17,471 nt of DNA, taken from contig JAJRZV010000020.1 of NCBI GenBank assembly GCA_024275095.1, forward strand, positions 1 to 17,471, in the 5' to 3' direction. The translations under genes and the position numbers were made by a program. Below are positions 5,957-17,471 of the stretch, one piece after another. Below the pieces are notes generated by a model. That model was not told the origin of the DNA. It was given only the letters and a program-made list of their open reading frames with translations, and searched no databases. Source of the DNA: a bacterium. GTDB taxonomy: Bacteria > JAJRZV01. Numbering within the stretch: position 1 is the stretch's first letter; each line of letters starts with the position of its first letter.

Positions 5957-8593
5957 CTATTTGAGCACCATGTCAAATAAAAAGCGTGAGGGACGAAGCA
6001 CCTGATAACCCCGACGTGAGGGGAAACTAAGTATCACTCTCTGAAGTGCTCTCGTCAGGGCAACGAAAAGAAGCCGCCGCTCTTCCTCCATATCCCTCTG
6101 ACTGATGGAGCTACTTTCCAAGGGAAAGATTCCTTCCGCAAGTCCTGTAATAAATACCACAGGGAACTCCAGCCCTTTCGACGAATGGACAGTCATCAAC
6201 CGCACTGCATTGGTATTCCATCGGGCGAGTTCCAGGTCTTCCATGAGTCCTATATGGTCAATGAATTCCTGAATGGTCCCTTTAAATTCTCTTCCTGCTC
6301 TGAGAAGCTCTTCCAGGTTTTCGACCTGTCCCGCAGCCTGAGCTGAACCGCGTCGTTTCAACTTCTTCAGACACCCCGTATCCTCGAGAAGCACCTGCAA
6401 TACATCTCCTGGAGCAAACTGATGTGGAGAACGCATGATTTCGGCTCCATACTCTATGAAACGCCTGTACCTGGGTGGTGCATTCTGCTTCATATCATCC
6501 GGGAATTCGAACTCGCTGAGTCCCTGAATAACGCGTCTTGAACCTGTCAACCATGCCAACCCTTTCAGATACTCTTCCACATTACCTGAGACAAGTGCTC
6601 TCAAAATGCCGACGACTCGTGTAACCTCCTCCCTCTCGTAAAATGCTGTCATGCCCACAAGCGTATACGGAACACCTGAACGGCTGAATGCTTCCTCAAA
6701 ATTTCGAGAATAAAAATGAGAGCGAAACAGAACGCATACACCCGAATAACTCACATCACCAGAGCGTACAAGTTCATGAATGCGTCGTGCAACGAACTCC
6801 GCCTCCTCTGTATCTGAAGAGGCTCGAAAGAGTTCCACCTCACCTTCATTTTTTGCAGCTGTAGCCACCAGCCCGGCCTGTTCGTGGCGACTCATAAGAT
6901 TTTGAGCCACCTGAAGAACCTTCGCCGGGAGGCGAAAACTCGTCTGAAGAGAAAACTCCACAACCCCGGGAAAATCCTCAACGACCCGGTCCATAAACTG
7001 TGTACTTGCACCCCGCCATGAATAAATATGCTGGTACGGGTCCCCGGTGATAAAAAGACAGGCATCCTCTGCGGTCAGGAGCTTAATCAGTTCATATTGA
7101 CTACATGTAAAATCCTGTATCTCGTCAACAAATACAGCCTTGAAATTGGCACGCAGTTCTTCCGCCACCTCAGGATGACGATGCATAATCCTACAGGGGA
7201 AGTAAAGAAGGTCCTCGTAAGTCAGCAAGCCTTCGGTTGCCAGACGATTCATCATGTGGAAAATCCTCGCAACATTCATGCGATAGTCACTGCCCAGGCT
7301 CCATCTATTCACTTCATCTGCCCGCATCAACCGTGTTTTTAATTTCTCTGCTTCTCTTACGAGTCGCTTGAGTCTTTTACCTTTTTGCTTGATGTCCAGC
7401 TTTTTCAAATACTCATCATCTAAAGGCGTAACTTCAAAATCTTCCGGTATGCCGACCAGCCAGCCGTATTTTCTGAGGATTCTCAAACCGATACCGTGAA
7501 CAGTATCAATGAGCATTTCGTGAACTTCACGCCGCAGTATTTTCTCCACGCGTTCCTTTACATCAGCTGCGGCCTTGCGCGTAAACGTGGCTACCAGCAT
7601 GGAAGAAGGTTCGAGTTCCTTCTTTTCAACGAGATAACATATCCGATGCACCAGGCAGGTCGTCTTTCCCGAGCCGGCACAACCCTTTAAAAGTATCCGG
7701 CGATGCTCACACTCCACCACACGTCTCTGGCCCTCGGTCAATTGCAAGCCTTCTTCCTTTACGGAAGTTTCCACAAGGACAGCCTTTCTCACTCGATGGG
7801 CACTTATAGCTCCGACATCTACCAGTGCATCTCTAAACTCTTCTGCACTTGCAAATCGCTCCTGAGGATTAACGTGCATGGCCTTTCCCACAACCTGAGC
7901 AAGCGACGGAGGAACCGAAGAGTTAATCACAGTAACAGGTGCAGCTCTGCCCTGAAAAATAGCCTTTCTCACCTCTTCCAAGGAATCACCGGTAAAGGGC
8001 TGAACTCCTGTGAGCATCTCATAAAGAACCACCCCCAGCGAATAAATATCTGAACGTTCTGTGAATTTACCCGTCCATCCTTCGGGCGGGAGATATACAG
8101 GGGTGCCAGCCATAGAGGCGGAGATGGTACCTTTCTTCAGAAATCGTGCAAGACCGAAATCCGTAAGTTTCACCTCACCTTGCGGCCCCAAGAGTATGTT
8201 TTCGGGTTTTATATCCCGGTGAACAACCCCCTGTTTGTGAGCATACTCAAGTCCTTCCAGCACACGACAAGCAATTTCTACAGCCTTCTCCACCCCCGGA
8301 GGATCTTTATCCATCAGATGCCTGAGAGACCCACCCTCCACATATTCCATCACCATTACCAGGCGACCATCAATAAAGTCGGCATTGTAAAATCTAACAA
8401 TACACGGGTGGTAAAGACGTGCAAGAACTCGTGCTTCATCTTTAAGCACCTGGACTTCCTTCGGGGAAAGACGCGATACCTTCAGGGCGAATTTTTCTCC
8501 AAGAATGGAATCTTCTGCCAGATATACATCTCCAAATGCCCCTCCTCCCAGCCAGCGCAGTATGGAATATTTACCAATTCTGGTGGAAATCAA
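5957..8593 (-). CDS. Ser/Thr protein kinase fused to UvrD/Rep-type superfamily 1 helicase
   Basis: This single 878-residue frame joins two complete enzymes. Residues 1-265 form a Hanks-type kinase: glycine loop GGGAFGDVY (16-24), Lys38 in FALK, Glu53 of helix C, HRDIKPEN (125-132), DFG (145-147), and GTPVYLPPE (163-171) at the APE position. No membrane helix or PASTA domain follows. After a short linker, residues 285-878 form a UvrD/Rep/PcrA-like helicase: Q motif LTEGQ (285-289), Walker A GCAGSGKT (304-311), VDEIQD (489-494), GDPYQHIYSWRGA (517-529), TSFRLP (551-556), VHSSKGLEF (802-810) and EERRLLFVALTRA (837-849). All key catalytic residues are present in both halves. The TTG start at 8593 sits in a TTGA overlap with the stop of the upstream gene and has AGGA seven bases before it. 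The kinase could phosphorylate its own helicase or a neighbour's product; that is inference. It lies last in a five-gene run and faces the sulfatase gene tail to tail. Confidence 0.93.
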   Translation of the reverse strand: MISTRIGKYSILRWLGGGAFGDVYLAEDSILGEKFALKVSRLSPKEVQVLKDEARVLARLYHPCIVRFYNADFIDGRLVMVMEYVEGGSLRHLMDKDPPGVEKAVEIACRVLEGLEYAHKQGVVHRDIKPENILLGPQGEVKLTDFGLARFLKKGTISASMAGTPVYLPPEGWTGKFTERSDIYSLGVVLYEMLTGVQPFTGDSLEEVRKAIFQGRAAPVTVINSSVPPSLAQVVGKAMHVNPQERFASAEEFRDALVDVGAISAHRVRKAVLVETSVKEEGLQLTEGQRRVVECEHRRILLKGCAGSGKTTCLVHRICYLVEKKELEPSSMLVATFTRKAAADVKERVEKILRREVHEMLIDTVHGIGLRILRKYGWLVGIPEDFEVTPLDDEYLKKLDIKQKGKRLKRLVREAEKLKTRLMRADEVNRWSLGSDYRMNVARIFHMMNRLATEGLLTYEDLLYFPCRIMHRHPEVAEELRANFKAVFVDEIQDFTCSQYELIKLLTAEDACLFITGDPYQHIYSWRGASTQFMDRVVEDFPGVVEFSLQTSFRLPAKVLQVAQNLMSRHEQAGLVATAAKNEGEVELFRASSDTEEAEFVARRIHELVRSGDVSYSGVCVLFRSHFYSRNFEEAFSRSGVPYTLVGMTAFYEREEVTRVVGILRALVSGNVEEYLKGLAWLTGSRRVIQGLSEFEFPDDMKQNAPPRYRRFIEYGAEIMRSPHQFAPGDVLQVLLEDTGCLKKLKRRGSAQAAGQVENLEELLRAGREFKGTIQEFIDHIGLMEDLELARWNTNAVRLMTVHSSKGLEFPVVFITGLAEGIFPLESSSISQRDMEEERRLLFVALTRALQRVILSFPSRRGYQVLRPSRFLFDMVLK

Positions 8594-9504
8594 TGAGCTG
8601 TCCTGAAAGCCGAGAGGTGTACAGGTTTCCCATCAAGCACCGTAAGCTTCGAAACAAAGGAGCGTCCGAGAACCCTGAATTCCTCACCCTTTGCAACCGA
8701 AGGAAATTTTTCCGTCTCTCCCTCGAAAACATCGGATATAAAACGTGTTGCTTTTCTATGAGCTACGGTCCCTCTTTGAGTACTCATGTATAACAATCCC
8801 TCAAGCGCGTAGCTCTTCAACAGTTTCTCAAACTCTTTCTTATACAGGGACCTGTCAAAAAAAATGTCCATCCCGATAACGCGTGAACCTGTAGCAACAA
8901 GAAACCCGGAATAATTCTTCAATTCACTTCCTTCACTGACAAACTGATCAAGCTCCGCCCGCAGCTCATAAAACGCATCTGAAAGACTCACTGTATTCGA
9001 ACGCACCCGAAGCGTTGTTAACGTTGAAGAGACGGTACTCCACACACGGCCCTGGTCTGAGTGAAAGGAGCGTCGCGTTCGCAGGTTACGTGTGACACTC
9101 GAGCAAAGAATAGCCCTGAGGCTGGGATGGGAACAGCCTGTGGACCCGGAAAAGGTCCCGCGGCCAGACCATCTCCCCTGCTCCACGCAGGACACAGGCA
9201 CCACAGCTTCGCCCATGGGGTCAAGGATGACACTGGTGTTGAACACGCGGTTCTGCAAAGCACCGTATATCTCCTCGCCCTCAAGAATAAAAAGAAAATC
9301 ATCCGCTGAATTCCTCACGACAACAGACTCAACACTCGCACGATCGAGCTCTTCCACCTGCACACGCCCTGCTACAAGACCCTCATCGAGAACAATAAAC
9401 GGCAACACTTTTCTTTCTTCGGCCTGGAGCGGGAAAACGGTCAGGTTTCTCCACAGCAACGGCTCATTCACCTCTGGTTGTGAACAAATATCCCTTAACC
9501 TCAT
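8590..9504 (-). CDS. ARPP-1/DUF6569-like domain protein
   Basis: This 304-residue soluble protein matches from memory the ARPP-1 (DUF6569) pattern, a domain named for its association with ADP-ribosylglycohydrolases and rhodanese/phosphatase proteins and of unknown biochemistry. Diagnostic segments are FPL (24-26), VVVRNSADDFLFILEGEE (61-78), IYGALQNRVFNTSVI (79-93), VPVSCVEQGRW (102-112), Gln151 and Trp155 in QGRVW, GMDIFF (211-216), and KLLKSYALEGL (227-237). The conserved Glu77/Glu78, Gln84/Asn85/Arg86 and Glu108/Arg111/Trp112 suggest an active or ligand-binding site. It has no signal peptide or membrane helix. A near-perfect ribosome site (AAGGAGGTGA, 9511-9520) stands before ATG 9504. It overlaps the upstream gene by four bases (ATGA) and the kinase-helicase gene by four (TTGA). 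The family assignment is fairly firm; the function is unknown. Confidence 0.75.
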   Translation of the reverse strand: MRLRDICSQPEVNEPLLWRNLTVFPLQAEERKVLPFIVLDEGLVAGRVQVEELDRASVESVVVRNSADDFLFILEGEEIYGALQNRVFNTSVILDPMGEAVVPVSCVEQGRWSGRGTFSGSTGCSHPSLRAILCSSVTRNLRTRRSFHSDQGRVWSTVSSTLTTLRVRSNTVSLSDAFYELRAELDQFVSEGSELKNYSGFLVATGSRVIGMDIFFDRSLYKKEFEKLLKSYALEGLLYMSTQRGTVAHRKATRFISDVFEGETEKFPSVAKGEEFRVLGRSFVSKLTVLDGKPVHLSAFRTAH

Positions 9505-9854
9505 CTCGGTTCACCTCCTTGCTTCTCTTCCACTGCAAGTAATTTTACATCATGCGTACGTGCGAATGCCCCAAGGTCATCACCCTCAACATCCATGATT
9601 TCAGGCATCTCCCGGGTAAGCACGCCCCTCCTTTTGTGACGGTGCATGTACACCACAACAAAACCTTCAACAGGAAAGGAACGGAGCGAAGCCATAACAG
9701 GTACAAGTTCATCTTCAATAACAGAAACACCTGTAAACGGTTCCTCTGATAACGGTACCGGGAACACGCGCGTCTGATATACGCCCTGAACCTGGTCAAG
9801 GGGTATGATTAAGTACTCCCCTCGCAGGTCAGCAGGTATTAAAAGACACCGCAC
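9501..9854 (-). CDS. Small CheW-like protein, front half best preserved
   Basis: This 117-residue protein resembles the scaffold fold of CheW. The pattern is a first strand and helix LIIPLDQVQGVYQ (15-27), a proline turn FPVPL (31-35), the strand pair GVSVIEDELVPVMASL (42-57) standing where CheW has its Gv...rG.viPvidL segment, then VVVYMH (66-71) and GVLTREMPEIMDV (77-89). The C-terminal part is degenerate. CheW domains link receptors to CheA-type kinases, but no receptor or CheA is present, so chemotaxis is unlikely. Here it may be an adaptor for the Ser/Thr kinase encoded two genes downstream (inference). The GTG start at 9854 lies eight bases after the previous gene, and the stop overlaps the ARPP-1 gene start in ATGA. 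The CheW relation rests on pattern alone and needs a profile search. Confidence 0.6.
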   Translation of the reverse strand: MRCLLIPADLRGEYLIIPLDQVQGVYQTRVFPVPLSEEPFTGVSVIEDELVPVMASLRSFPVEGFVVVYMHRHKRRGVLTREMPEIMDVEGDDLGAFARTHDVKLLAVEEKQGGEPR

Positions 9855-9862
9855 GGCCTACT

Positions 9863-10183
9863 CTAACTCAGCAAAAAGTATACTGCTTCATTCTTGACCA
9901 CCGCGCCGGCAAGAAATATTTGATTCCGTGCTGTTTTCACCTCATCCGGAAGTTCATGTATCCTGTCAATCTGGAAAATTCCTTTCACCACATCTGCAGG
10001 ATAAGCTGTAATAGAGCCCTCTCTCATACAGAATATGACAAATCGGCCTGTACGTGTCTCAGAAAGCGGGGTTATCACTTCTTCAGGTACACTTTCTTCC
10101 TGACAGTCAACAATACGCTCAACCCTTTCAGCTTCAACAGCATATCCCACACCATCTTTTTCCATGAGCAGGAATACCATCAT
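9863..10183 (-). CDS. Small CheW-like protein, back half best preserved
   Basis: This 106-residue protein also looks CheW-like. VFLLMEKDGVGYAVEAERVE (3-22) resembles the opening strands and first helix. The middle of the CheW barrel seems to be missing. GRFVIFCMREGSITAYPADV (46-65) followed by VKGIFQIDRIHELP and a last segment with IFLAGAVVKNEAVYFLL match the second subdomain, including the closing strand where CheW has the pattern fi.G......illLd. It complements the next gene, whose front half is better kept, so the pair could act as a heterodimer (inference). ATG 10183 overlaps the proS stop (TAATG), so translation is probably coupled to proS. A second ATG follows directly (ATGATG), so the start could be one codon later. 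No membrane segment is present. Confidence 0.55.
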   Translation of the reverse strand: MMVFLLMEKDGVGYAVEAERVERIVDCQEESVPEEVITPLSETRTGRFVIFCMREGSITAYPADVVKGIFQIDRIHELPDEVKTARNQIFLAGAVVKNEAVYFLLS

Positions 10184-11910
10184 TACTCTCTTACAGTCTT
10201 TTCATTTTCTATCATAGATTTCAATCGAAGGGTACACTCCTGAAAAGGTATGTCCTGACGTTCACCAGTGCGCCTCACCTTCACCTCCACCATTCCCTCA
10301 CTGGCCTTCCGGCCAACTATCACGTGGAAAGGGAATCCAATAAGGTCTGAGTCCTTGAACTTCACGCCGGGGCGCTCATTGCGGTCATCTATGATCACAT
10401 CTACCCCTTCACCGGAAAGTGATGAGTACACTTTTTCAGCCACTTCCCGTTGAGCTGGATAGGTTGGATTGAGAAGTATCACGACGGCCTCGAAAGGCGC
10501 CAACGGCACGGGCCAGATAATGCCGTCTTTATCATGATTTTGTTCCACAGCAGCAGCCATGGTGCGACCCACTCCTATTCCGTAACACCCCATGATCATG
10601 GGTCGAGAGTTGCCTTCTTCATCGAGAAAACAGCATTCCATTGGTTCACTGTATTTTGTGCCCAGCTTAAACGTATGCCCGACCTCTATGCCGCGCTTTT
10701 CCATGAGCACACCGTTTTCACACCTGGGACATCTGTCCCCGGAAACAGCAAACGCAATATCGGCCAGCTCTTTTACAGCAAAGTCTCTTCCGGGATTCAC
10801 GTTGACAAAATGGTGGTCTTCTTCGTTGGCTCCGGTCACCCCGTTCACAACTTCCGCCACAGAATAATCGCACACAATCCGAACTTTACCCTCCATATTC
10901 ACGGGACCTGCAAAACCGACGGGTGCACCCGTTAAATTCTCAATTTCTTCCGCCGTGGCCAGCTCCACCCGCTCTGCTCCCAGAAAGCGCGTTAGTTTGT
11001 TTTCGTTGATCTCCCGCAAACCTGCCGTGACTGCCATGACAAGGCTTCCGCTATCCACCTTGTAAATCAGGGTTTTGAGCAAACGATTCTTGTCAACCTT
11101 GAGAAAAGCACTTACCTCTTCCACAGTTCTCTTTCCCGGCGTGTGAACCTTCTCAAGCGGCCTCTGCTCCTCGTGCACGCTCGCATTTTCCCTTCTCCGC
11201 TCAGCCCGCTCGCGGTTGGCCGCATAGCCGCACTTCTGACAGTACATGATAAGGTCTTCTCCAGTCTCTGCTATCACCATGAATTCATGGGAAAAATGTC
11301 CGCCTATAGCACCCGTTTCTGCTTCCACAGGCTGAAACTCAAGTCCACACCGTTTGAAAATTCTCACATAAGCATCAAACATGCGCCTGTAGCTGTCCTC
11401 AAGGCCCTTCTCATCCACATCGAAACTGTACGCATCCTTCATGCTGAACTCCCGCGCCCGCATGAGCCCAAAGCGGGGCCTGATTTCATCACGGAACTTC
11501 GGGCCTATCTGGTAAATGATAAGGGGCAAATCCCTGTAAGACCTGACATCCTTGCGTACGAGATCAACAACCACCTCTTCGTGTGTTGGTCCCAGGCAAA
11601 ACCACCGGTCAGAGCGATCCTTGAAACGCAGAAGTTCTTTGCCGTAAGCATCCCACCGGCCTGTCTCCTTCCACAAATCCGCAGGAATGGTAAGCGGCAT
11701 ACTCACCTCTACGGCACCGGCACGGTTCATCTCCTCGCGGATAATGTTTTCAACCTTTCTGATAGTTCTCAAACCAAGTGGGAGACCATCGTAAATGCCT
11801 GAAGCGACTTTACGTATGAAGCCCGCCTTTACAAGGAGCCTGTGCGACGGAACCTCCGCGTCACGGGGGGCTTCTCTCAATGTGGGAATGTAGTAGTGGC
11901 TCCAGCGCAT
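10183..11910 (-). CDS. proS: Prolyl-tRNA synthetase, bacterial type with editing insert
   Basis: This cytoplasmic class II aminoacyl-tRNA synthetase charges tRNA-Pro with proline. At 575 residues it has the bacterial length (E. coli about 572). Motif 1 lies in GLPLGLRTIRKVENIIREEM, motif 2 in PKFRDEIRPRFGLMRAREF, and motif 3 in GCYGIGVGRTMAAAVEQ. Between motifs 2 and 3 lies a YbaK-like editing insertion with VSAFLKVDKNRLLKTLIY, which in the family removes mischarged alanine. ATG 11910 was chosen over GTG 11916 because the ribosome site AAAGGAGGTGA (11913-11923) overlaps that GTG and sits five bases before the ATG. Its stop overlaps the next gene. It is an ordinary housekeeping gene that seems to head an unusual operon. 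Confidence 0.97.
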   Translation of the reverse strand: MRWSHYYIPTLREAPRDAEVPSHRLLVKAGFIRKVASGIYDGLPLGLRTIRKVENIIREEMNRAGAVEVSMPLTIPADLWKETGRWDAYGKELLRFKDRSDRWFCLGPTHEEVVVDLVRKDVRSYRDLPLIIYQIGPKFRDEIRPRFGLMRAREFSMKDAYSFDVDEKGLEDSYRRMFDAYVRIFKRCGLEFQPVEAETGAIGGHFSHEFMVIAETGEDLIMYCQKCGYAANRERAERRRENASVHEEQRPLEKVHTPGKRTVEEVSAFLKVDKNRLLKTLIYKVDSGSLVMAVTAGLREINENKLTRFLGAERVELATAEEIENLTGAPVGFAGPVNMEGKVRIVCDYSVAEVVNGVTGANEEDHHFVNVNPGRDFAVKELADIAFAVSGDRCPRCENGVLMEKRGIEVGHTFKLGTKYSEPMECCFLDEEGNSRPMIMGCYGIGVGRTMAAAVEQNHDKDGIIWPVPLAPFEAVVILLNPTYPAQREVAEKVYSSLSGEGVDVIIDDRNERPGVKFKDSDLIGFPFHVIVGRKASEGMVEVKVRRTGERQDIPFQECTLRLKSMIENEKTVRE

Positions 11911-11912
11911 GC

Positions 11913-11923
11913 TCACCTCCTTT
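11913..11923 (-). promoter_or_regulatory. proS: Ribosome binding site that fixes the proS start
   Basis: AAAGGAGGTGA on the minus strand is almost fully complementary to the 16S rRNA 3' end. It leaves the optimal gap before ATG 11910 and physically covers the alternative GTG at 11916, so it rules out the longer reading. Confidence 0.8.
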
Positions 11924-12948: not shown

Positions 12949-13668
12949 ATGAAAAACCACAAAAAAACCACTTTAATCAAAAGGCACGCGTTATGTTTGG
13001 TAGGGATTTGCGCGTTTGTCTATTCATGTGTATTTGGACATTCTTATACAAAATACGAATTTTCCAGCGTTACCGCAGCAAAAATACCGTTCAAAGTAAA
13101 CAAAATAGTTCAGCTCCCCACCCTGATGATGCTGGACGAATGTGCATACGAGAGCGGGCACATGTACGACCACGTGGTAACCGAAAGCCTGAAAGCTGTC
13201 CTTTCAGGGCGTCAGATAGATTTCATTCCTGTACAGGCAGTTTATGAAATTTTCAGCAACGACCTTCGAAACACCGAAGATGCTTACACGTATCTGGCCG
13301 GCCTCCAGTACTCTCCTCGAGGAGCACTGTTCCTTTTCAGGAAAATAGCCGAAAACACCAAAGCAGAATACGGGGTGCTACCCATTGTGTATGTATCGAC
13401 CGCGGAGACATACGTCAGGAAAGAAGCCCGAACATCAACCGGGCAAAGCATGGAACAGGCCCGGGGCCTTTCACTTTACGAATACGTCATTGTCTCGTTC
13501 GTCAGGTTAACCGACGGGAAAATACTCTACCAGTACTTATACGGTGATTGCACGGAAGGCGGACTGGGTGGATATGCCGAATGCGCGTTTGACCCTGTAA
13601 GCACGAAAAAACTGACCCGGATAGTATCAAACGCAATGGAAGCGTTTATAAACAAAACAAGCCGCTGA
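12949..13668 (+). CDS. Exported protein of unknown function, first of five-gene cassette
   Basis: I do not recognise this 239-residue protein. It starts with a basic and then hydrophobic export signal (about 1-27). Cys27 in VYSC could be a lipid-attachment site, but tyrosine at -2 is unusual, so ordinary signal peptidase cleavage is also possible. The mature part looks alpha/beta. A strand near KIVQLPTLMMLD is followed by a helix with ESLKAVLSG, a strand with QIDFIPVQAV, a central strand GVLPIVYVS (about 143-151), YEYVIVSFVRLTDGKILYQY (176-195), and a C-terminal amphipathic helix ending at the last residue. This resembles the LpoB/CsgG/TolB-N type of small periplasmic domain, but that is only a shape argument. 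A strong GGAGGGAGGA site precedes ATG 12949. The next gene follows after 10 bases. Confidence 0.7.
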   Translation: MKNHKKTTLIKRHALCLVGICAFVYSCVFGHSYTKYEFSSVTAAKIPFKVNKIVQLPTLMMLDECAYESGHMYDHVVTESLKAVLSGRQIDFIPVQAVYEIFSNDLRNTEDAYTYLAGLQYSPRGALFLFRKIAENTKAEYGVLPIVYVSTAETYVRKEARTSTGQSMEQARGLSLYEYVIVSFVRLTDGKILYQYLYGDCTEGGLGGYAECAFDPVSTKKLTRIVSNAMEAFINKTSR

Positions 13669-13678
13669 GGAGGGGGTC

Positions 13679-14311
13679 ATGGAACGTAAACAATTCACGT
13701 TTATACTGCTTTTCATCATAGCAGGTGTTGTCCTGTCAGGCGGTTGCGCTTCAGCATACAGAATGGCCTACGGTGTACCGGAATTTAAAAGCATGGGCAG
13801 CAGAATTCCTTCGGGCGCGTCAATCATAGTCCTGCCCCCTGTCAATGAAACCCCGGTGAAATTTCTGGCAATGCTATTCCAAGAGCAACTGGTTAACGGC
13901 ATAAAGAAAAATCGAAAAGGATTCAGGGTAACAAATGCTTATCAAATGTTTGGATCTGATAAAAATACGGCGGCCCTTTACGACAGGTGCATAGACGAAC
14001 TGAGAGCCGATAAATTTAAAAATATTGACAAAGATTCGTGCGTTGCCGTTTATAACAAAACAGGCGGAGACGTAATCATACTGCCGGTGATTAAAAACCT
14101 GAACCTCCATCTGGATGTAAAAATATCCAGGGGCTCCTTCTACATAAAAGTCAAGTCAATCACGAGGGTGTATTATCTGGACGCAAAGATATATGCCTAT
14201 TCCAGGAACACCGGGGATATTATATTCAAAACGGATGGTTCTGTTGCGGCAATAAACGACCTGGAAGATTCAATAACCAGACTGGCAGACCAGATAGCCG
14301 AAAACCTGTGA
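13679..14311 (+). CDS. Predicted lipoprotein with LpoB/CsgG-like layout
   Basis: This 210-residue protein has a clear lipoprotein signal, FIIAGVVLSGGCAS, with Cys23 as lipidation site and alanine at +2, which in enterobacteria would send it to the outer membrane. The mature domain begins with SIIVLPPVNETP (48-59), a strand-turn very like the opening of LpoB/CsgG/GNA1162-type proteins. A helix with FQEQLVNGIKK follows, then DVIILPVIKN, an exposed strand pair with RVYYLDAKIYAYSRNTGDII, and a C-terminal helix. Such proteins in other systems act as outer-membrane-tethered regulators or secretion parts; the role here is unknown. Spacing to both neighbours is 10 and 18 bases with good ribosome sites, so it is part of one operon. 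Confidence 0.75.
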   Translation: MERKQFTFILLFIIAGVVLSGGCASAYRMAYGVPEFKSMGSRIPSGASIIVLPPVNETPVKFLAMLFQEQLVNGIKKNRKGFRVTNAYQMFGSDKNTAALYDRCIDELRADKFKNIDKDSCVAVYNKTGGDVIILPVIKNLNLHLDVKISRGSFYIKVKSITRVYYLDAKIYAYSRNTGDIIFKTDGSVAAINDLEDSITRLADQIAENL

Positions 14312-14329
14312 AAAAAAGGAGGCACCCAA

Positions 14330-14938
14330 ATGAACGAAAAAATGTGTAATATTGCAATCAGAGCGATCATTTCATGCCTGTACATCACGGCAATCGTCTC
14401 CTGTGCACCTTCAATGTCGTCGTATGACATGAAGTATCGAAAAATTGATTCGGATACCCGGCTGCTGGTATTAAAATGCATTTTTCCAGAAAACACGGAG
14501 CACGCGGCAGCCGCAAAGCTCACATGCCGGCAGGTGGACTCCATAATCGTTGCTTTGTTGGAAACTGGAAATATATTTAAAAACATTTCACAAGTTTCAA
14601 AAAACATTTTGAGCGAATCCGAAAAGAATTCTTTAGCAAGCCCCATGATTCCATCGATAGAAAAAAGGGTGGCAATAAAAAAGGTAATTAACAAAATTAA
14701 CAACTCGGCTCAGCAGGAACCTGATTACGTGCTCCTGCCTTTTGCAACGGTGGCATATTCCCTCGGTTACAGCGGTATCAAACTGGAACTTTACAACACC
14801 CAGGGTGAAATGGTGTGGGAAGGCGGAAAGGTGATAGATTTAGACGACTTTTTCAACTTCAAAAGCAACCAGGATGTCGCAAACATTACACAGGAACTCA
14901 TAAACAAAATGTACAATGCTTTATCCACGGAAGAGTGA
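14330..14938 (+). CDS. Predicted lipoprotein of unknown function
   Basis: This 202-residue protein has a lipoprotein signal ending in AIVSC, with Cys25 as the lipid site followed by alanine. The mature part begins with a charged strand region containing TRLLVLKCIF and then a long helical stretch. DYVLLPFATVAYSLGYSG, the strand LELYNTQGEMVWEGGKVIDL and a C-terminal helix follow. The order (opening strand, helix, a D.vLLP-type strand, a strand with a turn at QGE, last helix) repeats what is seen in the two upstream proteins, so the three may be distant paralogues. It is preceded by AAAGGAGG. Its stop lies 43 bases before the next start. Confidence 0.72.
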   Translation: MNEKMCNIAIRAIISCLYITAIVSCAPSMSSYDMKYRKIDSDTRLLVLKCIFPENTEHAAAAKLTCRQVDSIIVALLETGNIFKNISQVSKNILSESEKNSLASPMIPSIEKRVAIKKVINKINNSAQQEPDYVLLPFATVAYSLGYSGIKLELYNTQGEMVWEGGKVIDLDDFFNFKSNQDVANITQELINKMYNALSTEE

Positions 14939-14981
14939 TCAACGAAGTACGATTCACGACTTCTTTCACCGGGGTAACATC

Positions 14982-15566
14982 ATGATCAAAAAGTACAAAT
15001 GCAACTCAAAATGCCTGGGCCTGTTAATTACCTTACTCTTCCCGGTCGTGGCCGGATGCGGCGACATGACACGACTTCCAAACATAGCTGGCAGTTACGA
15101 GGGTTTTGTAATTTACACTGACACCACGTGTGATTGGCCTCTTCCGGCATCCTTTCCTCTGGAAATAACATTTCAATACAAAAGTTTTCCCACAACCATC
15201 GAGATTACGATGGACCCCAACCTAATTTTGTTAAACACGTTAGAACCCGCAGATATTAAATTTGAACAACATCCCTGCATTAAAATTTCCTATGCCACTC
15301 CCAGGAATCTGGAAGGCGCAATGTATAACCAGCAGGGGAATTTCGCTATTTACACCCCGTCTGAATATGGAATTACCATTACCACAACGTGTTCACCGTA
15401 TCTTTACATGAGCCTGAGGATTGTACCATTTAACGGCCACTACAATGAACAATCGCATAAGGTCGACATAAACGGTACAATATCAATATTCATAAGCCCG
15501 GACATCTTCTGTAAATACTCCTGCAGAATAACAGGTTATAAAAAAGATAAACATAAAATCGAATAA
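14982..15566 (+). CDS. Predicted Cys-rich beta lipoprotein
   Basis: This 194-residue protein is not recognised. The frame is open further upstream and overlaps the previous gene, but the start at ATG 14982 puts the positively charged MIKKYK next to a hydrophobic core ending in the lipobox VAGC (Cys26), with a GGGGT element upstream. The mature part is rich in beta-forming residues, starting with NIAGSYEGFVIYTD. It has five cysteines after the lipid site (in TTCDW, HPCIK, TTCSP, IFCKY and YSCR), enough for two disulfides. This suggests a small extracytoplasmic beta-sandwich or barrel domain. It sits between a lipoprotein gene and an outer-membrane barrel gene, 11 bases before the latter. Confidence 0.7.
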   Translation: MIKKYKCNSKCLGLLITLLFPVVAGCGDMTRLPNIAGSYEGFVIYTDTTCDWPLPASFPLEITFQYKSFPTTIEITMDPNLILLNTLEPADIKFEQHPCIKISYATPRNLEGAMYNQQGNFAIYTPSEYGITITTTCSPYLYMSLRIVPFNGHYNEQSHKVDINGTISIFISPDIFCKYSCRITGYKKDKHKIE

Positions 15567-15577
15567 AAGGGCGTGAA

Positions 15578-16225
15578 ATGGATAAACACAAATTCTTAAA
15601 AAATAAAACACCTGTGGTGTTCGGTATAATTTTCTTTGTTTGTTGCCCTGTAAAAAGCACTGCCGGTGATGTACAGCTCAGGCACTTGGGGTTCAATTTT
15701 CTCACGGGTGGAAAGGTGATGTTTTCAAAAGCCTTCAAGGGGAAAACGAGGGTACCGTTCGGCGGCACGTTCGAATTATCTATTTTACCGGTAAAGTACT
15801 TCGATATAAACTTGAGGCTTCTCTTCACAAACATATATTACTCGGCCAAAGAAAAGATCGAATTTGCTGACGGCATTAAAATTGACGCAGGCTCTTTAAT
15901 CCTTGAAGGAGTGTACATTGGATATGACCATAACATTCTTCCGGGTAGAAAACTTAATCCCTTTGCCGAAATTGGACTCAATCTTGCATTCCATGGCCTG
16001 AGGGGTGGTGATGTCGATGCTGGAGAATGGAACATCGACATGCTTATGGGAGGAGGCGTCAAGTTTTATCCTGTAAAATCAGGATGGCTGGAATTAAAAC
16101 TTGAGGCTGGCGTAAGCATCGAACTTTCAACCATTTCAGCAAGTATAGGAAGCATTTATGTAAGTGACGTGTTCAATCCGTCTCACTTTTTCTTTCTGGT
16201 GGGTGCAGGATTCAGGGTTTTGTAG
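15578..16225 (+). CDS. Predicted outer-membrane beta-barrel protein
   Basis: This 215-residue protein has a signal peptide (about 1-29, with cleavage suggested after STA). It then shows alternating amphipathic strands rich in glycine and aromatic residues: GGTFELSILPVKYFDINLRL (62-81), LILEGVYIGYDHN, LNPFAEIGLNLAFHGL, IDMLMGGGVKFYP, WLELKLEAGVSIEL and a final strand SHFFFLVGAGFRVL. This is the layout of a small eight-stranded outer-membrane barrel of the OmpA/OmpW size class. Function is unknown. It closes the cassette of four exported proteins encoded just upstream and could be their partner in the outer membrane. No intrinsic terminator is visible after its stop. Confidence 0.72.
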   Translation: MDKHKFLKNKTPVVFGIIFFVCCPVKSTAGDVQLRHLGFNFLTGGKVMFSKAFKGKTRVPFGGTFELSILPVKYFDINLRLLFTNIYYSAKEKIEFADGIKIDAGSLILEGVYIGYDHNILPGRKLNPFAEIGLNLAFHGLRGGDVDAGEWNIDMLMGGGVKFYPVKSGWLELKLEAGVSIELSTISASIGSIYVSDVFNPSHFFFLVGAGFRVL

Positions 16226-16418: not shown

Positions 16419-17471
16419 TTACTTAATCGTGATATCACATGTGGCGTAATTAATAACCCCGTTACCCCCATATACCTTTTGAACACCGTACCAGAGTTTT
16501 AAAACGCCGTCTTCATACAGTGCTCCAACTGGAAAGTAAGCAATATCTGCCGGGGCAAAAAACGGGTTGTTCTGGCATTTGACCCAGGAAATTCCATCAT
16601 GTGAGAAAGCACAGTTAAACCCGTTCTGGCCCGAGTCCAGATTCTCCGTGTAAATCAAGAGGAACAAATCCTGATATACAACGACTCTTCTAACCAGATA
16701 ACGAGTTGACGGATCTACGAAATCGGGAAGAGGGTTGTCAGGATTTTTTGTCCAGTTGACTCCATCTGGAGATGTGGCAAGCCCGATCTTAAAACTCTCG
16801 GCAGAGGAATCACGATAAGAATAAAACATATAGTATGTACCCTCTTTTACCGTTACTGCAAAGTCGGAAAGGTTCCACCACTGGCCGTTTGAGGGGAATA
16901 CGGGATTGCCCTCGTACAGGGTCCAGGATATTCCGTCATCTGAAGTTGCATACCCGTACTGTTTATTACCGTACAGGTTTACCTCGTTTCCCCAGTAGAA
17001 AGCTTCATAGCCTTTCTGTGGATCGTACAGGAGGTTGTAAGCACATACCCTGTGGTATGCCCAGTCTTCCTGCTTGTTCGGAAACACAGGATTGGTGTCT
17101 GCCCTGGTCCAGTTTAACCCATCCGGTGATACAGCAAGATATGTTTGCTCCTGGTTATCGCCTGTATTTGCCCAGTAATCTATGTACATTTTGTAGCCCA
17201 CACTATCTCTCAGAACACCAATTTGTCTAATTGCTGCTTCCCAGGTACCTCCTCCTCTTACGAATACAGGATTTCCAGCATAATCAGTGCAGCTGATGGT
17301 ATATGAACACGAAAGACCTTCATTTGTTTTTCCATTGCAATTGTTATCCCAGCCATCGCATACCTCTGTGCTTTCCACACAGACACCTGCAGATTCAGGG
17401 TTGAGCGCCACCACCCCCAGCGTCACATCCAGCGCGTACTCGCTCAGGCACACGAACTTCACCGTCTCAGC
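16419..17471 (-). CDS. Secreted protein: MopE-like motif plus five-bladed beta-propeller, N-terminus cut off
   Basis: The frame is open to the right edge (its first codons here read AET before VKF), so the N-terminus is missing; GTG 17462 is probably internal. With that codon counted as 1, a motif EVCDGWDNNCNGKTNEGL (33-50) matches the putative metal-binding MopE-type repeat (consensus CDGxDNDCDGxxDEG), with Asp replaced by Asn at several positions. Residues 60-347 hold repeated blades of the pattern (V/A)SPDGxNWT...NPVF: 111-127, 173-188, 229-245 and 286-301, with a first NPVF at 64. This is the five-bladed propeller of GH43/GH32-like proteins. The acidic catalytic residues cannot be assigned with confidence, so it may bind rather than cut glycans. 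It ends 193 bases from the barrel gene and faces it tail to tail. Confidence 0.75.
   Translation of the reverse strand, partial: AETVKFVCLSEYALDVTLGVVALNPESAGVCVESTEVCDGWDNNCNGKTNEGLSCSYTISCTDYAGNPVFVRGGGTWEAAIRQIGVLRDSVGYKMYIDYWANTGDNQEQTYLAVSPDGLNWTRADTNPVFPNKQEDWAYHRVCAYNLLYDPQKGYEAFYWGNEVNLYGNKQYGYATSDDGISWTLYEGNPVFPSNGQWWNLSDFAVTVKEGTYYMFYSYRDSSAESFKIGLATSPDGVNWTKNPDNPLPDFVDPSTRYLVRRVVVYQDLFLLIYTENLDSGQNGFNCAFSHDGISWVKCQNNPFFAPADIAYFPVGALYEDGVLKLWYGVQKVYGGNGVINYATCDITIK

Follow-up and report, generated by a model that had tools for sequence, protein, structure and literature searches.

A conserved bacterial fusion of a Hanks-type kinase with a UvrD-type helicase and its linkage to ARPP-1

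The kinase-helicase gene and its neighbours

The DNA analysed here (the window) is a stretch of 17,471 nt (contig JAJRZV010000020.1, assembly GCA_024275095.1) from a bacterial genome of 2.45 Mb that is 97% complete; all genomes compared with it belong to other phyla. A single uninterrupted frame joining a Ser/Thr kinase to a UvrD-type helicase had been predicted at positions 5957-8593. The frame and both domains were recovered, and the gene was placed on the minus strand, a point on which the original prediction was silent. The gene belongs to a run of same-strand genes with the following features:

5957..8593, minus strand: kinase-UvrD helicase fusion gene (878 aa, TTG start, one uninterrupted frame)
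7844..8569, minus strand: Hanks Ser/Thr kinase domain at the extreme N-terminus, residues 9-250 (Pfam Pkinase, E 2.8e-52)
8114..8122, minus strand: activation-loop S158-A-S160, likely autophosphorylation sites as judged from sequence
7742..7819, minus strand: inter-domain linker, residues 259-284 (length conserved in 45/45 orthologues)
5960..7741, minus strand: SF1A UvrD/PcrA-type helicase core, residues 285-878 (Pfam and fold match)
8590..9504, minus strand: ARPP-1 (PF20208) partner gene, 304 aa, directly upstream of the fusion (E 6.3e-74)
9187..9189, minus strand: ARPP-1 Cys106, predicted to be catalytic (invariant in 34 cytosolic and 19 other ARPPs)
9501..9854, minus strand: CheW-like small protein, 117 aa, same operon (Pfam CheW E 1e-4, just below the cut-off)
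9863..10183, minus strand: second CheW-like small protein, 106 aa, same operon (Pfam CheW E 0.006, below the cut-off)
10183..11916, minus strand: ProS, prolyl-tRNA synthetase, first gene of the same-strand run (family match)

The kinase half carries the elements of a Hanks kinase (Gly-rich loop, VAIK Lys, αC Glu, HRD Asp, DFG Asp and APE Glu), with Lys38, Glu53, HRD at residues 125-127 and DFG at residues 145-147 in the window protein. This full catalytic set is shared with PknB, StkP and PrkC, and the modelled kinase half resembled PknB with a TM-score of 0.91 (by target length). Unlike these kinases, the fusion is cytosolic, has no transmembrane or PASTA sensor part, and continues into a C-terminal helicase. 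Its kinase is at most 42% identical to the kinases of related loci.

The helicase half contains the Q motif and motifs I to VI of the SF1A family, with Q289 (Q motif), Walker A K310, DEIQD at residues 490-494, and motifs III-VI up to R848. Pfam assigned UvrD-helicase to residues 285-542 (E 1.6e-55) and UvrD_C to residues 750-857. The motif set and fold are those of the UvrD/PcrA/Rep helicases: residues 280-878 of the model, with 1A, 1B, 2A and 2B domains, matched PcrA, UvrD and Rep at Z about 40-44, the superposition onto residues 6-644 of PcrA (3pjr) giving Z 44.1 over 460 residues at an rmsd of 2.3. In contrast to these helicases, the fusion forms its own clade, has a kinase at its N-terminus and, ending soon after motif VI, lacks the C-terminal extension of PcrA. 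Scores against the NCBIfam equivalogs fell far below the cut-offs, with 360.9 bits versus 911.2 for pcrA and the same outcome for the others.

Note that these comparisons draw on two models, predicted with alignment rows consisting only of proteins of related loci. The first, a whole-protein model that is poor at residues 285-430, was used for the kinase comparison. The second, made with the helicase alignment rows only and unreliable in its kinase half, was used for the PcrA comparison. The linker was modelled as a helix with low confidence. The relative placement of kinase and helicase was a low-confidence prediction in both models, which counts against reading the two as a coupled module. 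The G+C content is equal in the two halves (0.485 and 0.489). The window protein is a genuine fusion, and each of its halves appears to be active.

The CheW-like genes form a tandem pair (9501-10183) between ProS and ARPP-1. ProS was not found beside other fusions and was ruled out as a conserved partner; the CheW-like genes were rejected likewise, as L101 is the only one of the loci examined in which a (single, clear) CheW gene follows the fusion. Elsewhere in the window, five consecutive short genes (12949-16225) encode proteins with lipoprotein- or signal-like N-termini and have no Pfam match over the cut-off. Towards the contig end, at 16419-17462 (minus strand), lies a gene for a secreted-type protein in which a MopE-like metal-binding motif precedes a five-bladed-propeller-like stretch related to GH32/GH130.

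Conservation and origin of the fusion

A full-length match to the fusion was present in two others (G125 and G168) of 386 genomes sampled across the domain. Within the phylum of G125, 62 of 147 genomes, from 18 families, had a fusion match at E 1e-95 or below, and within that of G168 the fusion was found in five of nine genomes. The resulting 67 further orthologues are mostly full length, with a few cut by contig ends, and their longest matches are ~32-41% identical to the window protein; such a number excludes chance. The fusion is kept steadily within families, as in 21 genomes of one family (f281) and all four of another (f269), and no other architecture with both domains was found among the loci examined. 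The original prediction had named restriction to this assembly, with two separate genes in close relatives, as a refuting result. Confinement to one genome is ruled out by this spread over three phyla and by the single clade that each domain forms (below).

In a maximum-likelihood tree of 56 kinase domains, 23 fusions formed one clade (100/100). Similarly, a helicase tree with 82 members grouped 16 fusions into one clade (SH-aLRT 100), and the standalone UvrDs from the fusion genomes fell outside it. Because each domain thus forms a single clade, a single origin of the fusion is most likely.

We counted residue conservation over 45 full-length fusion proteins. Kinase residues K38, E53, D127, K129, N132, D145 and E171 are invariant (45/45), as are helicase residues Q289, K310, D490, Q493, D494, Q521, R527, R554, K806 and R848 (45/45); E491 shows a single change, to Asp. 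Together with the Pfam matches, this bears out the claim that both halves possess complete catalytic sets. In the activation loop, position 160 is Ser in 37/45 and Thr in 2/45 orthologues, and position 158 is Ser in 28/45 and Thr in 4/45. Between positions 251 and 285 all 45 orthologues have 26-37 residues. An in-frame stop lies 0-12 residues upstream of position 1 in 39/44 orthologues, which puts the kinase at the extreme N-terminus.

In most of its hosts the fusion coexists with a standalone UvrD and a helicase of AddA/RecB size. The retained UvrD rules out the fusion as a general UvrD replacement. No standalone UvrD was found in fusion genomes G441, G442, G487, G506 and G435 (MAGs, 89-96% complete), where the fusion may be the sole UvrD-type helicase. 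Four other genomes (G526, G439, G536 and G168) yielded no Hanks kinase besides that of the fusion. The substrates of the fusion kinase are thus probably nearby, and a dedicated, local task is favoured over a network.

Linkage of the fusion to ARPP-1

The main new finding, absent from the original prediction, is the linkage of the fusion to ARPP-1. In the window, the TTG start of the fusion gene overlaps the ARPP-1 stop as TTGA (4-nt overlap). The partner belongs to the ARPP-1 family (249.4 bits versus a cut-off of 27) and has its conserved Cys and Gln (C106 and Q84), both invariant. Across the 34 cytosolic and 19 other ARPPs compared, R86, E108, R111, Q151 and W155 are invariant along with these two. 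PMC9503650 predicts that ARPP-1 is an enzyme in which a Cys and a Gln are conserved, both shared by the window partner, and proposes a catalytic role of the Cys.

Of 34 fetched loci, 17 have ARPP-1 beside the fusion (upstream in 15, downstream in 2), among them all four from the G168 phylum. By coordinates, it is adjacent on the same strand in 37 of the 62 fusion genomes of the G125 phylum. In this phylum ARPP-1 occurs in 59/62 genomes with the fusion versus 22/85 without it (Fisher p about 1e-18, a value that ignores relatedness). Distances between fusions and between ARPPs were correlated (Spearman 0.57 over 29 genomes), which fits co-inheritance but, as an uncontrolled value, is not counted as evidence. 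In the other phyla examined, the genes flanking ARPPs included neither a kinase nor a UvrD.

Among the 22 non-fusion genomes with an ARPP, 16 have only a secreted type that bears a hydrophobic segment or an additional domain at its N-terminus, two have fragments, and four have a cytosolic ARPP (G406, G432, G477 and G515). G406 and G432 have congeners with the fusion, and the ARPP of G477 lies at a contig end. Note that the profile used for this classification was built from fusion-adjacent ARPPs and leans towards them. ARPP-1 is unlinked to the fusion in nine families, which counts against a two-gene module. All 13 unlinked ARPPs of fusion genomes that were read are cytosolic, with nine further unlinked ones outside this count.

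Other settings of ARPP-1 were also seen. In the G125 phylum there is a second type that begins with a signal-like hydrophobic segment (e.g. L171, L172, L173 and L175), mainly in genomes without the fusion. Within fusion genomes, some unlinked cytosolic ARPP-1 genes lie directly before genes for nucleotide-messenger enzymes, either of the RelA/SpoT type (two families) or a CdaA-type diadenylate cyclase (L161:4354-7334, L170:444-3699 and L162:3793-5447). In a phylum without the kinase-helicase, a 500-aa frame (L338:5933-7435, minus strand) joins HIRAN (residues 12-93) to ARPP-1 (residues 197-492), in line with the HIRAN-ARPP pairing already published. The partners named in the available part of PMC9503650 are genes for HIRAN, WYL and deacetylase proteins, besides the predicted ARG-centred conflict systems in which ARPP is found; a kinase-UvrD partner is not mentioned there.

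Candidate roles of the kinase-helicase and ARPP-1

Enzymes of the UvrD/PcrA family translocate along DNA in the 3'-5' direction, and a Hanks kinase that has this catalytic set is usually active. By analogy with these families, the fusion would be expected to translocate 3'-5' on DNA and to phosphorylate proteins. Its domains are intact and conserved, most likely became joined in one fusion event, with a short linker kept, and are linked to and co-occur with ARPP-1. We consider the chances even that kinase-helicase and ARPP-1 form a cytosolic, chromosomal DNA-maintenance module. The helicase half would bind and move along DNA at gaps, 3' ends or stalled forks. The N-terminal kinase would thereby be recruited to, and probably activated by, the DNA-engaged helicase. 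It would then phosphorylate itself and proteins met at the DNA site, with ARPP-1 as the best candidate partner, cofactor or substrate. ARPP-1 in turn probably carries out chemistry on a sugar or nucleotide lesion, for which it would use the invariant Cys and the residues around it; for ARPP, covalent reactions with sugars in the manner of SRAP have been suggested (PMC9503650). For such a module we infer the direction of coupling, the substrates and the lesion. The original prediction had allowed for both directions, with unwinding that could trigger the kinase or phosphorylation that could switch the helicase.

A precedent for the principle of a DNA-tied kinase is YabT of Bacillus subtilis, a DNA-activated Hanks kinase that phosphorylates RecA (PMC3708118). 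Like the fusion, it is a bacterial kinase tied to DNA. YabT differs in being a putative membrane protein that binds DNA via a short basic region (PMC3708118), whereas the DNA-binding part of the fusion would be an ATP-driven motor.

Alternatively, the kinase might be a switch for its own helicase, such that a cytosolic signal would lead to an (auto)phosphorylated helicase half and turn unwinding on or off, no downstream substrates being needed. The short conserved linker and the four genomes in which no Hanks kinase other than the fusion was detected speak for this, as does a review in which UvrD/PcrA figures among the phosphoproteins of several bacteria (PMC4754617). However, with the kinase at the extreme N-terminus and nothing between it and the helicase, the protein lacks a sensor domain, and a self-directed switch alone does not explain the ARPP-1 association. 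We regard it as rather unlikely.

We also considered antiphage or anti-plasmid defence, in which the helicase would detect foreign DNA ends and the kinase would signal to an effector. In PADLOC, the helicase half comes closest to GajB helicases and the kinase half to PD-T4-6/MAD6 kinases, and PMC9503650 places ARPP in predicted ARG-centred conflict systems. The PADLOC matches span one domain each, however, and ARPP-1 has none. The window has no nuclease neighbour and only a generic helicase match, excluding Gabija (GajB beside GajA). The MADS, PD-T4-6 and BREX PglW kinases were excluded as well, since the matches cover the kinase domain only (194.2 bits versus 460 for MADS6, 127.4 versus 990 for PglW). 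Furthermore, the fusion is present steadily within families, and its neighbours are varied and mostly housekeeping genes. Searches of plasmid, phage and viral-contig collections returned neither a fusion nor a close ARPP-1, and a mobile-element or viral origin was rejected for lack of a fusion there. A defence role is weaker than the maintenance module and appears quite improbable.

The PcrA/UvrD family has transcription roles, and PcrA/UvrD proteins are the closest in fold to the fusion. The helicase might thus act on stalled RNA polymerase, with the kinase reporting transcription-replication conflicts. In PcrA/UvrD the Tudor-like module that binds RNA polymerase is part of the C-terminal extension. 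All orthologues stop 30-43 residues past the motif VI arginine and the window protein aligns only to PcrA 6-644, so that the extension is absent and a transcription-linked role is very unlikely. Finally, an assembly or gene-calling artefact joining two genes is practically inconceivable, as the same join recurs, with its linker length kept, in the 67 further genomes of two other phyla.

The maintenance module might also be taken a step further. On this tentative and somewhat doubtful extension, it would be a new kind of bacterial DNA-damage checkpoint, in which the kinase reads DNA engagement by its own helicase and, with the lesion-handling ARPP-1, signals or executes repair in several uncultivated phyla.

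Bacterial Hanks kinases have mostly been studied as membrane sensors, with few links to DNA repair. A eukaryotic parallel is FBH1, which was among the fold matches and in which a UvrD-type helicase is combined with an F-box part (ubiquitin ligase). Like the fusion, it covalently joins a UvrD-type helicase to protein-modification machinery; it differs in that the modifier is ubiquitin, not phosphate, and the likeness considered here is one of architecture and fold. The word 'helicase' is absent from two surveys of Hanks kinase architectures (PMC1262709, PMC11032199). Neither a kinase-UvrD fusion nor its pairing with ARPP-1 was found in the literature searched, mostly journals outside subscription, and domain databases may list the architecture uncommented. 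This agrees with the original prediction, in which no protein of this kind was known to have been characterised. Measured against that literature, the locus combines two known kinds of domain in a conserved way that has not been described, and their partner is likewise unreported.

In conclusion, a conserved kinase-helicase of single origin with both active sites intact makes coupling between DNA work and phosphorylation testable in one purified protein, and together with ARPP-1 it offers a simple two-gene form for reconstitution. The association gives the uncharacterised ARPP-1 family a concrete partner and a DNA context. The presence of a joined kinase-helicase and ARPP-1 in many little-known bacteria suggests an undescribed DNA-maintenance device that couples DNA work and signalling.
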